From Parcubacteria group bacterium GW2011_GWD2_38_11 (GTDB taxonomy: Bacteria; Patescibacteriota; Minisyncoccia; Moranbacterales; GWC2-37-73): 32,606 bases of DNA. The stretch is taken from assembly GCA_000992325.1 (NCBI GenBank), contig LBTZ01000014.1:1-32606 (forward strand). The letters run 5' to 3'. Shown piece after piece: positions 1 through 16,264 of this stretch. Position numbers and translations under genes: made by a program. The notes beneath the pieces were generated by a model, which had not been told where the DNA came from, searched no databases, and saw only the letters and a list, made by a program, of their open reading frames with translations. How positions within the stretch are numbered: position 1 is the stretch's first letter; each line of letters begins with the position of its first letter.

Positions 1-1786
1 TAACTACCGCCTGTCCTTTTGATGTTCGTGCGGATTCTGGAATTTCATAAGCCTTTGTTTGAAAAACTTTTCCGGTGTTAGTGAAAAACATCAAATTGTC
101 GTGTGACATCACGCTGGTAACCTTTTCGATAGAATCTCCTTCTCGCGTTGTTGCGCCAATCACTCCCTTGCCACCTCTTTTTTGTACCTTATATACGTCA
201 GGGTTCATTCGTTTGATATATCCGTCTTGAGAAATTGTGATGATAGCCTCTTCATTTGGAATCACATCTTCTTGTTTGAACTCTTCGATTCCAGTTTTGA
301 GCACTTTTGTTTTGCGCTCATCCCCAAATTTTTCTTTAAGCGCAATAAGTTCATCTTTAACCACGCCAAGAATTTTCTTTGGACTAGCTAACAAATCTTC
401 AAGCACAGCAATAAGGGCAAGTTTTTCCACGAGCTCGTCTTCAATTTTTTTGCGCTCAAGTCCAGCCAATGTTTGCAATCGCATTTCTAGGATAGCAGTA
501 GCCTGTCTTTCTGATAATTTGAATTTTTTCATCAAATTAGCATGCGCTTCCTCTCGAGTTGGAGATTTTTTGATGGTTTCAATAACAGCGTCAATGTTGT
601 CCAAAGCAATTTTGAGTCCTTCCAAAATATGAGCACGATCTTTTGCCTTGTTAAGTTCAAATTGTGTGCGACGTTTCACCACAATGTTTCGGTGCAAAAT
701 GTAGTGTTCCAAAATTGACTTAAGAGAAAGAATTTGTGGATCAATTCCATCCACCAATGCCAACATATTTACATTGAAATTCTTTTGCAAATCGGTTGCA
801 TTGTAAAGTTTGTTTAAAACTTTTTGTGCGTAAGCATCTTTTTTCAGTTCAATCACGATGCGCACTCCGTCTTTGTCAGATTCATCGCGAAGATCTTTGA
901 TGCCCAAAATTTTTCCTTCTTTAACCAAGTCCGCAATCTTGATGATCAAGTTTGATTTATTGGTCAAATAAGTTATTTCTGTGATAACAATATGAAAATT
1001 TCCAGATTTTTGTTCGATAATATCAGCTTTGGCTCGAGTGACAATTTTTCCACGACCGGTTGAATACGCTTCTTTAATTCCCGGAGTGTTATACATAATT
1101 CCTCCAGTTGGAAAATCAGGACCCTTGATAAATTGCATCAAGTCGTCCACATTAGCTTCTGGATTATCAATCAAGTGATTGATAGCATCAGCAAGTTCGT
1201 TTAAATTATGTGGAGGAATGTTGGTAGCCATACCAACTGCGATTCCCATAGTCCCATTAAGCAAAAGTTGTGGAAGTTTTGCGGGAAGCACGACGGGTTC
1301 CTTGTGAACGCCATCAAAGTTTGGAATGAAATCAACCGTGTCTTTTTCAATATCAAAAAGCATTTCTTCAGCAATGGCTTTTAATTTTGCTTCAGTATAA
1401 CGATAAGCAGCAGCACTATCTCCATCCATTGAACCGAAGTTTCCTTGTCCCCAAACCAAAGGATAGCGAAGGGAAAAATCTTGAGCCAAACGAACCATAG
1501 AATCATACACAGCAGTGTCTCCGTGTGGATGATATTTTCCTAGCACTTCTCCAACCACTGTGGCAGACTTTCTGAATTTTGCTGATGGACGAAGACCACT
1601 GTCCCACATAGAATACAAAATTCTGCGATGAACAGGTTTAAGGCCATCGCGAACATCAGGCAACGCGCGAGAAACAATAACGCTCATCGCATAATCCAAA
1701 TATGATTGTTGAACCTCTGCCACAATCTGACGAGGTTGAATATTTTCAGGTACAAAATCTAATTTTTTTTGTTGAGCTGCTTTCAT
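1..1786 (-). CDS. gyrA: DNA gyrase subunit A, C-terminal part cut off by the window edge
   Basis: Minus-strand translation from ATG at 1786: [135 protein letters not shown], the GyrA N-terminal signature. Frame stays open to the window start. Confidence 0.95.
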
Positions 1787-11328: not shown

Positions 11329-12309
11329 TTACTCCTCTAGTTTTGAAGAATAATTTTGCAAATCAGTGGTTAAAAAATCGGAATAAAGATTTGTATAAGC
11401 ACTTATTTTTGTGCATATAGCCATACGTTCAATCGGATCGCTATCGTTTATATAGGAAAAGCCTTGAAAGGTTAGTGATAGGCCCTTTGTAATTCGTAAA
11501 AATTTAATATGCAATTCAAACATAGTCTCAGGAACTTCAACATCATTTGTCTGGTTTGTAAAAAGTTCTAGCCTATTTCCTAAGTCAACAAAATATTCCA
11601 AGTTGGTGTTCGGGTTAGAAATTGATATTAATTGGTTTTTAAAATTTTCATTAAAAGCTTCAAGATCAGTTGAGGTTAAAATAACTCCTGGCGCATTGCT
11701 TAGTAGGATATATTGCAATTTTGTGAAATACTTTTCCGCATCCGTAAACTTCTTTGTTGCTCTTTCTTCCTTGCTTAGGTTCGCATAGGGTTGCTTTAAG
11801 ATTTTGATCTGTGACGAATCGATTTCCGGCAGTGAATCAATGGTAACGGCTTGCCCTAATTTGTCAGACATAGTTCTAGTAACAAAATCATTGAGGTCTG
11901 AATTTGAAATTGGCTGACCATTCTTTGATGCGACAAATGATTGTAATTCATTTGCGAAGTTGCTAGTTAACGACTCGCTGGCGCTAGTACTACTTTGTGA
12001 ATCTGTCTCTGCTATTGAATTTGTAACTCTATCCCCTGGCGCAGGCTTCATAGGATCGTATCCACTCTTCACCTCAACTCCATCGGAATATCCGTCATTG
12101 TCGCTGTCTCCATTGCTTGCATTAGTTCCATATAGTTGTTCTTCTGCGTTAGTTAGTCCGTCGCAATCAGGATCAATAGCTTTATCACAGCTCGCCTGTC
12201 CGGCAGTTGAATCTTCAGCTTTAACATATGTTAAATAATTAAAGCCGGCAAAAAAAATACAAGCCGAAATAAGGAGAATTTTTTTGATGTGTTTTATTTT
12301 GATATACAT
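11329..12309 (-). CDS. secreted protein with thrombospondin type-3-like calcium-binding repeats
   Basis: N-terminal signal segment; DPDCDGLTNAEEQLYGTNASNGDSDNDGYSDGVEVKSGYDP. Confidence 0.75.
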   Translation of the reverse strand: MYIKIKHIKKILLISACIFFAGFNYLTYVKAEDSTAGQASCDKAIDPDCDGLTNAEEQLYGTNASNGDSDNDGYSDGVEVKSGYDPMKPAPGDRVTNSIAETDSQSSTSASESLTSNFANELQSFVASKNGQPISNSDLNDFVTRTMSDKLGQAVTIDSLPEIDSSQIKILKQPYANLSKEERATKKFTDAEKYFTKLQYILLSNAPGVILTSTDLEAFNENFKNQLISISNPNTNLEYFVDLGNRLELFTNQTNDVEVPETMFELHIKFLRITKGLSLTFQGFSYINDSDPIERMAICTKISAYTNLYSDFLTTDLQNYSSKLEE

Positions 12310-12389: not shown

Positions 12390-12443
12390 TAAAAATCCAT
12401 CAAAAAGGACAGTGTTATACTAAATTAAATGAATCTGCCGTAT

Positions 12444-12533
12444 GTCATTCCCGTGAAAACGGGAATCCAGGGCCAGGCCTCGCTCTGGATCCCCAGTCCC
12501 TCCATAGGCGGGCACGGCAAGCTGAGGATGACA
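12444..12533. repeat. ~90-bp MITE/REP-like element, copy A
   Basis: GTCATTCCCGTGAAAACGGGAATCCAGG...CTGGATCCCCAGTCCCTCCATAGGCGGGCACGGCAAGCTGAGGATGAC; inverted copy at 14559..14647. Confidence 0.85.
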
Positions 12534-12629
12534 ATGTACCAGTAAATAAGTTAATTTAGTATCAGTATGATGAGTATATATATCAATATAAATAAATATA
12601 TTATACACACCGATTGGATAATGCTGGTT

Positions 12630-14411
12630 CTATTTTTCCGTCAGGTGTTCTTGTTTATGTTGACTGGCTAGAAGTGCAAACAAGATCCATAGAATTATTT
12701 GTCCTTGTTGTATATCCCAAAAATAATGATCAAAAAACATAATAAAAACAAATGCAAGAAGAATTCCTTTTAAGTAAATCAAAATTGTATTGCTTTTTAA
12801 ATTGTTCCACGTGGAACAATCCGTATCGCCTTCTGGTTTAAATTGTTTCATATGAAACAATTTAAACAAAAAATAGATAAAGCCAAATAATAAAAAAAAT
12901 CCAAATTCGTTTAGTATAAGCAGAAAAACGTTGTGAACTGGTTGGTATAGCCATGCCTCCAGTCCGTAATTGTTTACCATGCTTGGAATAAATTGCCCTG
13001 CGCCAATTCCAGAGAATGGTTTTTTCGTAAATGCTTCAATGGATATATTGACGTAGAACATTCTCTCTCGCAGGCTCTTTAGAAGTAGTGAGTCGACATC
13101 TGGCTTTGCAATTAAAAATGATAATATAAATATTCCACAGAGAAGTATAATTTTTCTTTTAAATTGTTCCACGTGGAACAATTTAAACATGTTTTGAACT
13201 CTCTTGTAAATTGTTCCACGTGGAACAATTTGGTTTTTTGAAGCTGTGTAGATATAGAATAATCCTATAAATAAGCCAAAAATTGCAGATTTTGAAAAGG
13301 TCAATAGAAGTGCAAGGCATTGAATAAGGATGATAAATTGAAATAATGTTCCACGTGGAACATTATTGATTATTTTCTTTAACAAATTGTTCCACGTGGA
13401 ACAATTTGCTTTTGTGTGTAAATCAGCTTTTTGTGTAATATAAAATTGTTCCACGTGGAACAATATTAACATAATTGAAAAAACCAAAAATCCTCCTAGT
13501 ATGTTTGGATGAGGAAACAGCCCGTATGCGCGAATATAAACATCCCCATCTAAAATAATCTTGGCGACCCCAGGCATTATTGGTGATATTGTGCTTTCTT
13601 TAAGCCAAAAAAGACCAGCAGAAGATTGTTTAATAAATTGAATGACCCCAATAATGGACTGAAATACCCCTGTCCAAATTATTATTAAGGAAAGATTTTG
13701 TAAAATGTTCCACGTGGAACATTTATTTTTGCTGATAGTGTTATTTTTCTTTGTTTCTTTGTGATGTTCCACGTGGAACATTCTTGTCAGTGTTTTTGGA
13801 ATTTGTTTGAAATAATCTTTGAATGTTCCACGTGGAACAATTTGTATTATGTAAAAATACATCAAGATAAATTCAAATAACTTGATTGATCTGTATGTGG
13901 CAATCAGCTTGTTGGTTGTCCACAGTATTGATAAAAAAGAAAAAAAGGCTATAAATAAAGGAAATATTGTTAAATAATTGTTAATAAATAGTGTATAAGA
14001 TTTTTTAATCAACAATAATGTTCCATATGTAACATTATATGTGGTGTTTTTTAAATTGTTCCACGTGGAACAATTTAAACTTGGATTGGGTTTATTTTGT
14101 AATTGTTCCACGTGGAACAATTTAAGTTTTGCTTTTATTTTAACAAAATATATTCTTAAATTTGACAAGATATACTTAATATTGTATAATATATAAAATA
14201 AAAATGTTAAAATTAAGAAGATATCAGATAGGTAGATGTATACCCCCGTATATTCATTAAAGGAATTATTAATTGGTAGATAATATAAAATTTTCCTTAT
14301 TGATAATGCGCTGGTTAATAGGAACATATAAAAAAACCAGACATCGGGTCTTGCCTTGAATGAATCCCAGCTTTGCTTGATTATATCTGACATATTTTCA
14401 TTATAGCGCAT
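12630..14411 (-). CDS. O-antigen ligase/polymerase-like membrane protein (Wzy_C-like) whose coding sequence hosts a parS-type array
   Basis: Many TM segments; FTKKPFSGIGAGQFIPSMVNNYG...YQPVHNVFLLILNEFGFF is Wzy/WaaL-like. Contains 13 embedded palindromes. Confidence 0.85.
   Translation of the reverse strand: MRYNENMSDIIKQSWDSFKARPDVWFFYMFLLTSALSIRKILYYLPINNSFNEYTGVYIYLSDIFLILTFLFYILYNIKYILSNLRIYFVKIKAKLKLFHVEQLQNKPNPSLNCSTWNNLKNTTYNVTYGTLLLIKKSYTLFINNYLTIFPLFIAFFSFLSILWTTNKLIATYRSIKLFEFILMYFYIIQIVPRGTFKDYFKQIPKTLTRMFHVEHHKETKKNNTISKNKCSTWNILQNLSLIIIWTGVFQSIIGVIQFIKQSSAGLFWLKESTISPIMPGVAKIILDGDVYIRAYGLFPHPNILGGFLVFSIMLILFHVEQFYITQKADLHTKANCSTWNNLLKKIINNVPRGTLFQFIILIQCLALLLTFSKSAIFGLFIGLFYIYTASKNQIVPRGTIYKRVQNMFKLFHVEQFKRKIILLCGIFILSFLIAKPDVDSLLLKSLRERMFYVNISIEAFTKKPFSGIGAGQFIPSMVNNYGLEAWLYQPVHNVFLLILNEFGFFLLFGFIYFLFKLFHMKQFKPEGDTDCSTWNNLKSNTILIYLKGILLAFVFIMFFDHYFWDIQQGQIILWILFALLASQHKQEHLTEK
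12803..14119. promoter_or_regulatory. parS: parS-like ParB binding site array: 11 perfect TGTTCCACGTGGAACA and 2 variants
   Basis: Perfect 16-mers at 12803, 13165, 13212, 13347, 13388, 13447, 13706, 13765, 13824, 14057, 14104. Variants TGTTTCATATGAAACA at 12844 and TGTTCCATATGTAACA at 14019. Confidence 0.85.
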
Positions 14412-14545: not shown

Positions 14546-14558
14546 CAGGTGGTATTTT

Positions 14559-14647
14559 GTCATCCTCAGCTTGCCGTGCCCGCCTATGGAGGGACTGGGG
14601 ATCCAGAGCACAGCACAAACCTGGATTCCCGTTTTCACGGGAATGAC
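14559..14647. repeat. ~90-bp MITE/REP-like element, copy B (inverted relative to copy A)
   Basis: GTCATCCTCAGCTTGCCGTGCCCGCCTATGGAGGGACTGGGGATCCAGAG...CTGGATTCCCGTTTTCACGGGAATGAC is the reverse complement of copy A apart from the centre. Confidence 0.85.
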
Positions 14648-14672
14648 AAAGTAATTATTTTTTTAAAAGTCT

Positions 14673-14758: not shown

Positions 14759-16264
14759 ATGATAAGGAAAATTCCTTCGCAAGTTATTGAGGTTTTGAAA
14801 AAAATTCAAGAAAATAATTTTGAAGCGTACGTTGTTGGTGGATGCGTGCGTGATTTGTTGTTGGATAAAATTCCGAAAGATTGGGACATCACAACAAATG
14901 CCAAGCCATCCGAGATTGTCGAAATTTTTCCAGATAGTTTTTATGAAAATGATTTTGGCACTGTTGGTGTAAAAGTTGAAAAGTTTATTACCAATGGCAA
15001 TGGTTTGCTTAGGGAGAGTAGGGAACACGATGTGATTGAGGTTACAACATATCGAATTGAATCGATATATTCAGATCGCAGACGTCCTGATGAAGTTAAA
15101 TTTGCCAAAACATTGGCAGATGATTTGGGTCGCAGAGATTTTACAATGAATGCAATAGCGCTACAACTAACAACAAACAACGAACAACAGACAACAGAAG
15201 ATGCGGGATTTGAAATTGTGGATTTGTTTGCGGGGCAGGAGGATATAAAAAAGAAGATCATCAAAACAGTGGGAGATGCCAATGAGAGATTTGGCGAAGA
15301 TGCTCTCAGGATGATGCGAGCAATTCGTTTTCACGCACAGCTTAATTTTGAGATTGAAGAAAAAACATTTGAAGCTATTAAAAAAAACTCCGCTCTTATT
15401 AATCACATTGCTCTTGAGAGGATTAAGGATGAACTTACGCGCGTTATTCTTTCTGACAATCCGGCGGAAGGCATTGAAATGATGCATAAAACAGGGCTTT
15501 TGGTGCACATTATTCCTGAACTGGAAAAGGGTGTTGGCGTTGCGCAGAACAGGCATCATATTCATACGATATATACACATTGTATTTTGGCGCTTAAGTA
15601 TTGTCCTTCGAAAAAATTGGAGGTGCGTTTGGCTGCACTTTTTCATGACATTGCAAAACCACAAACAAAACGTGGAGAAGGATTATATGCAACATTTTAT
15701 AATCACGATCATATGGGGGCAAAAATAGTCAGGCAAATTTTGACAAGGCTACGTTTCTCAAATGAAGTGATCGAAAACGTATCAATGTTGGTTGATAACC
15801 ATATGTTTTATTATAATCCCGATGAAGTTGGGGAGGCTAGTGTGCGAAGGCTTATTAAAAAGGTTGGGCTGGAAAATATGAAAGATTTGATGGATCTTCG
15901 CATTTCTGATCGATTGGGAAGTGGAACTCCAAAAGCAAAACCATATAAACTTAGGCACTTGGAATATGTGATTGAAAAAGTTTCCAAAGATGCAGTGTCC
16001 GTGAAGATGTTAAAAATAAATGGAAATGATTTGATGAAGGATTTGAAAATAACTCCGGGTCCAAAAATCGGAGCAATTTTGGATGTGCTACTCGCTGAAG
16101 TTATTGAGGACACTGAGAAAAATAATCGAGAATATCTTTTGACTCGCGCCAAGAAGTTGGAAGTGGAAGATTTACCCAAACTTCGTGAAATGGCGAAAGA
16201 AAAAATTGAAGAAAAGAAAGAGGAGGATGATGAAGAAATAAAAGGGAAGCACTGGGTTAAGTGA
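14759..16264 (+). CDS. cca: CCA-adding tRNA nucleotidyltransferase with HD domain
   Basis: AYVVGGCVRDLLLDKIPKDWDITTNAKP; RRDFTMNAIA; GEDALRMMRAIRFHAQLNF; HD motif LAALFHDIAKP. Confidence 0.95.
   Translation: MIRKIPSQVIEVLKKIQENNFEAYVVGGCVRDLLLDKIPKDWDITTNAKPSEIVEIFPDSFYENDFGTVGVKVEKFITNGNGLLRESREHDVIEVTTYRIESIYSDRRRPDEVKFAKTLADDLGRRDFTMNAIALQLTTNNEQQTTEDAGFEIVDLFAGQEDIKKKIIKTVGDANERFGEDALRMMRAIRFHAQLNFEIEEKTFEAIKKNSALINHIALERIKDELTRVILSDNPAEGIEMMHKTGLLVHIIPELEKGVGVAQNRHHIHTIYTHCILALKYCPSKKLEVRLAALFHDIAKPQTKRGEGLYATFYNHDHMGAKIVRQILTRLRFSNEVIENVSMLVDNHMFYYNPDEVGEASVRRLIKKVGLENMKDLMDLRISDRLGSGTPKAKPYKLRHLEYVIEKVSKDAVSVKMLKINGNDLMKDLKITPGPKIGAILDVLLAEVIEDTEKNNREYLLTRAKKLEVEDLPKLREMAKEKIEEKKEEDDEEIKGKHWVK

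Follow-up and report, generated by a model that had tools for sequence, protein, structure and literature searches.

A gene of Parcubacteria group bacterium GW2011_GWD2_38_11, predicted to encode a WaaL-like O-antigen ligase, contains a dense array of parS sites that is, with high likelihood, the ParB-loading (ParABS) centromere of the chromosome. The window analyzed here is a 32,606-nucleotide stretch of DNA from this organism. It carries the array, a feature without strand, at 12803..14119. The array is 1.3 kb long and has 13 sites (11 exact and two variants), all within the ORF at 12630..14411, which we confirmed to be a minus-strand ORF of 593 aa. Searching the window recovered all 11 exact copies of TGTTCCACGTGGAACA reported in an earlier note on this DNA, with starts at 12803, 13165, 13212, 13347, 13388, 13447, 13706, 13765, 13824, 14057, and 14104. 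This 16-bp palindrome fits the parS consensus. The remaining two sites, also strandless, have a CATATG core; these are TGTTTCATATGAAACA at 12844..12859, which encodes LFHMKQ, and TGTTCCATATGTAACA at 14019..14034, which encodes NVTYGT and has three mismatches to TGTTCCACGTGGAACA. The positions of all 13 sites given earlier are correct, but these two are better termed degenerate or decayed.

In the 936-kb assembly (39 contigs, 90% complete), there are 11 copies at two or fewer mismatches and every one is in the ligase ORF. The palindrome is not scattered evenly around the chromosome but is confined to one gene, and the array holds the only copies in the genome. Base composition predicts approximately 1.2e-4 exact copies genome-wide compared to the 11 seen. 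Similarly, dinucleotide-shuffled versions of the window had a mean of 0.08 matches and a maximum of 1, whereas the real window has 12. The gyrA gene, which had been placed about 11 kb from the array, was confirmed at 2..1786 on the minus strand where it is cut by the window edge.

The genome contains one gene predicted to encode ParB (306 aa) that adjoins the gene for ParA, and this single ParA-ParB pair is on a different contig than the array. ParB proteins and Noc are distinguished by R173 and G201 in ParB and by Q and R in Noc (PMC7383237). Alignments to solved structures showed that this ParB carries R and G at the positions of R173 and G201. With these residues in place of the Q and R of Noc, it is predicted to recognize parS and not NBS. 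Neither TIGR00180 nor PF02195 detected a ParB in four f10/g23 genomes (G081, G087, G090, G093) that are 94-100% complete and have 6-17 sites, and in family f11, ParB is present and exact parS is almost absent. These patterns may result from assembly gaps and drifted sites, or they may be real losses. No full-length match to the SMC model was found in the window's genome (G000). SMC homologues were found in 11 relatives and are approximately 770-855 aa long in ten of these and a 238-aa piece in G006. The short SMC proteins (G001, G004, G005, G007, G009, G011, G016, G026, G027, G036) are below the cut-off of the SMC model, with both halves of the head matched and the central part unmatched.

The in-gene arrangement is conserved over much of Candidatus Moranbacteria. 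Among 97 genomes from the order, 81 contain TGTTYCACGTGRAACA, with 1 to 18 copies that are mostly clustered. Within the window's family, the array is inside the orthologous ligase in seven genera and the order TSP3 protein, ligase, CCA nucleotidyltransferase is conserved. An eighth genus, g7, lacks the ligase, and its array is in intergenic DNA at the same locus. Other families with the array in the ligase are f2, f3, f6, f7, f8, and part of f10; the array is outside any long ORF in the rest of f10 and in the f4, f5, and f9 arrays that we examined. Approximately 50 named ligase loci bear sites, nearly all within the ORF, and the ligase relatives are mostly named Candidatus Moranbacteria or Moraniibacteriota. 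A quick tree made with the site codons masked placed 37 site-bearing ligases in one group (SH-aLRT 96). Sites are few or decayed in the groups next to it in this tree, and remote homologues lack them. Ligase orthologues in many genera carry arrays.

Several other features of these loci were observed. Ligases L143, L149, L151, L152, and L157 lack exact parS, and each retains at least two degenerate sites. Most of these recur at two or three shared positions with a shared frame, as if the centromere decayed and the peptide stayed. The f5 noncoding arrays L024 (G094:C86:6520-7024), L022, and L026 are spaced almost regularly, at about 61 bp, which distinguishes them from coding arrays. We considered whether intergenic arrays L233 and L234 contain remnants of a ligase pseudogene and ruled this out; the matches are the parS peptides themselves. 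The 1137-bp contig L144 is assigned to a Brevundimonas MAG and has ligase and parS positions matching those of the Moranbacterial contig L141; it is probably binning contamination.

In seven genomes of relatives whose contigs permit the comparison, the distance between the array and dnaA is 0.36-34 kb. A switch in GC skew is no more than about 6 kb from the array in G007:C16, and in G036:C4, the switch is at dnaA, 14 kb from the array. The window's genome has dnaA on contig C4, separate from the array contig. The origin-proximal position proposed in the earlier note was thus observed in relatives, by dnaA distance and in one by a skew switch, whereas for the window's own genome we infer it from these relatives. 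The proposal that this gene serves as the chromosomal centromere is supported by the exclusivity of the locus, the ParAB pair, the proximity to dnaA in relatives, and the orthologous arrays. From these sequences we predict that the array binds ParB and functions in segregation. ParB, whose gene adjoins that of ParA away from the array, would bind the parS palindromes and presumably spread or clamp on the DNA around the array. ParA would then move the complex of ParB and array so that the origin region segregates first. The unusual element of this model is that the array is written in the coding sequence of a WaaL-type ligase, in three frames, at loops and helix ends.

The predicted protein contains a Wzy_C domain (Pfam PF04932, above cut-off). 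An AlphaFold model built with 50 orthologues had a pLDDT of 81.6 and a pTM of 0.84. The closest PDB structure to this model is WaaL 7tpg (probability 1.00, E 2e-3) with a moderate TMt of 0.44; a sequence search of the ligase profile against the PDB gave no match. The domain and the fold match bear out the earlier description of the host gene as O-antigen-ligase-like, and we predict that the product is a ligase of this type with the corresponding activity. The host protein and WaaL have in common the Wzy_C family and the best fold match, but the host protein differs in having loops enlarged by centromere-encoded peptides. Outside of the sites, dN/dS was 0.37 for G004 and G005 and was 0.23 and 0.30 for two further moderately close pairs. 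The range overall was 0.1-0.4, with more divergent pairs near saturation. These values indicate that the ligase outside the sites evolves as a functional protein. The conserved syntenic neighbors of the ligase are genes for a TSP3-repeat protein on one side (11329..12309, minus strand) and a CCA tRNA nucleotidyltransferase on the other (14759..16264, plus strand). A 99-nt inverted repeat that is 90% complementary is found on both sides of the ligase gene (12443-12541 and 14550-14648), and the genome has about 40 matches to parts of it.

The sites are read in all three frames to encode FHVE[QH], CSTWN, and V[PS]R[GE]T. There were 0-4 synonymous differences per pair inside the sites, compared to 13-49% of unchanged-residue codons outside, in a one-sided test where sites were defined in one species only; this test replaces a circular synonymous count at shared sites. 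We projected the sites onto homologues that lack exact sites; 0.3% fell in TM-like columns compared to 28% of random positions. In the window's protein, the sites are in five loops or the adjoining helix ends, where the mean block pLDDT is 62 versus 85. By helix counting in the model, the five loops all seem to lie on the opposite face from the conserved R294, H301, R450, and H493 regions. The loops with sites would be cytoplasmic, provided that the catalytic face points to the periplasm, as it does in WaaL. With sites in three frames and in loops and helix ends, the same DNA would be selected both as a centromere and as protein. The sequence comparisons show double selection on one stretch, with the sites selected as DNA and the protein constrained too.

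In some ligases (L100, L102, L103, L106, L107, L112, L113, L120, L126, L133, L134, L137, L141), GC-rich inserts 20-45 bp long that resemble hairpins interrupt parS palindromes exactly at the center (CAC^GTG). In coding arrays, 20 of 22 center inserts are multiples of three; noncoding arrays contain one weak case. The insert resembles a small palindromic element targeting the parS dyad or a product of hairpin-tip copying.

We considered other explanations for the sites. One is that the repeated peptides FHVEQ, CSTWN, and VPRGT are selected protein motifs and the DNA palindrome is a by-product. The peptides are recurrent and in loops, and some positions (YLNVSRGT) are kept across genera. However, one 16-mer gives three unrelated peptides in three frames, synonymous positions are frozen, and identical 16-mers are found in noncoding arrays. 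This idea is already contradicted and we give it almost no credence. It is very unlikely that the sites are a selfish palindromic repeat of the Rickettsia palindromic element type that is tolerated in loops and resembles parS incidentally. The sites are in permissive loops, blocks of sites have been copied between loops (L107, L128), and the genome has other palindromic repeats such as the approximately 40 matches of the ligase-flanking repeat. By contrast, Rickettsia-type elements are dispersed through many genes, whereas the Moranbacterial copies are all in one gene; the sites are at one locus in the window's genome and clustered in the relatives examined, their sequence is exactly parS, and the array persists as an intergenic array at the same locus and near dnaA. 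We regard as slightly less improbable, although still unlikely, that the sites bind ParB chiefly to regulate the ligase or origin firing locally, and not for segregation. The array is origin-proximal in relatives and ParB from Pseudomonas aeruginosa can repress promoters near parS (PMC7022226), which we count in favor of local control. Yet, the sites fill the coding region and not the promoter, and arrays are also present where the ligase is absent. Additionally, the genome has no parS copies besides those in the ligase gene, which leaves no other centromere candidate of that sequence.

Neighboring sites in coding arrays rarely share a reading frame. We compared 48 coding arrays with 29 noncoding arrays. 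For consecutive sites less than 60 bp apart, 2 of 100 shared a frame in coding arrays whereas 16 of 41 distances were multiples of three in noncoding arrays (Fisher 2e-8). At less than 120 bp, the corresponding values were 8 of 137 and 39 of 111 (Fisher 3e-9), and beyond 120 bp there was no contrast (61 of 164 coding versus 19 of 58 noncoding). Permutation of frames within genes gave a mean of 40.5 and a minimum of 25, compared to 7 of 131 observed. Because blocks of sites have been copied between loops, site pairs are not independent; the contrast survived the collapsing of duplicates (2 of 60 versus 14 of 34), and 6 of 78 pairs were same-frame in 16 spread representatives.

One tentative explanation, to which we give somewhat less than even weight, is that housing in a gene stabilizes the array and the reading frame is a lock against collapse of the centromere. 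Array units would be lost when identical sites that lie close together recombine or when slippage occurs between them. A deletion between unlike-frame sites would cause a frameshift in the ligase and be purged, so that the frame would lock the array. The scarcity of same-frame neighbors at short distances is the signature that this model predicts. An in-frame indel of 189 bp distinguishes G004 from G005; it is bounded exactly by two frame-1 sites, and G005 retains a single site at the junction. This suggests that in-frame recombination removes same-frame neighbors and that frame protects unlike-frame ones. A second explanation, which we consider to be evenly balanced between true and false, is that the centromere reading is correct but the housing has no function. 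According to this, the flexible loops of an origin-proximal gene tolerate extra sites in a compact genome, and frames alternate because repeated peptides within one loop are disfavored in the protein. Consistent with this, the loops also accept the 20-45 bp GC-rich inserts, the frame effect ends at 120 bp, which is near the length of a loop, and intergenic arrays evidently work as well. Against this, the 189-bp in-frame indel between same-frame sites indicates that such recombination or its reverse happens. Also, six of six unlike-frame transitions occur, so that there is no fixed loop grammar; a strict order of FHVE then CSTWN then VPRGT is ruled out.

The earlier note considered a dense array inside one gene to be unusual. 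This holds for an array in one gene, but dense parS clusters (PMC3899335) and parS in genes (PMC4368675, PMC9040568) are already known, including single in-gene sites. Myxococcus xanthus has 22 parS in 3.1 kb (PMC3899335), or 22-24 sites (PMC3899335, PMC3778016). Like the Moranbacterial array, this cluster is dense and origin-proximal with many parS and a chromosomal ParB; it differs in that it covers about 3.1 kb beside parAB, whereas the array here is 1.3 kb in one gene, in three frames, and away from parAB. In P. aeruginosa, 9 of 10 chromosomal parS are predicted to be within coding sequences (PMC4368675), but these are single sites in different genes rather than an array within one gene. 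The parS of repABC replicons can be within ORFs such as cas genes and have been proposed to be selected there (PMC9040568). These differ in being few sites on secondary replicons, in several independent cases with no conserved host gene. Our literature search, which included few subscription papers, turned up neither an account of a centromere with many sites that is embedded in a single gene in several families, nor one of frame alternation of parS sites. No paper in this search linked parS to Patescibacteria, Moranbacteria, or the candidate phyla radiation.

The repeated inserts in Moranbacterial ligases should be treated as DNA elements and not as protein domains. The array also offers a natural setting in which to test how repeat arrays withstand recombination. 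If our reading is true, this is a bacterial centromere array kept in a protein-coding gene over long evolution, where selection on a single stretch of DNA maintains a functional membrane protein and, in three frames, ParB sites. It would provide a centromere for a large uncultured radiation in which our literature search found no segregation studies. These parS sites very probably direct the separation of chromosome copies in the tiny, uncultured Candidatus Moranbacteria.
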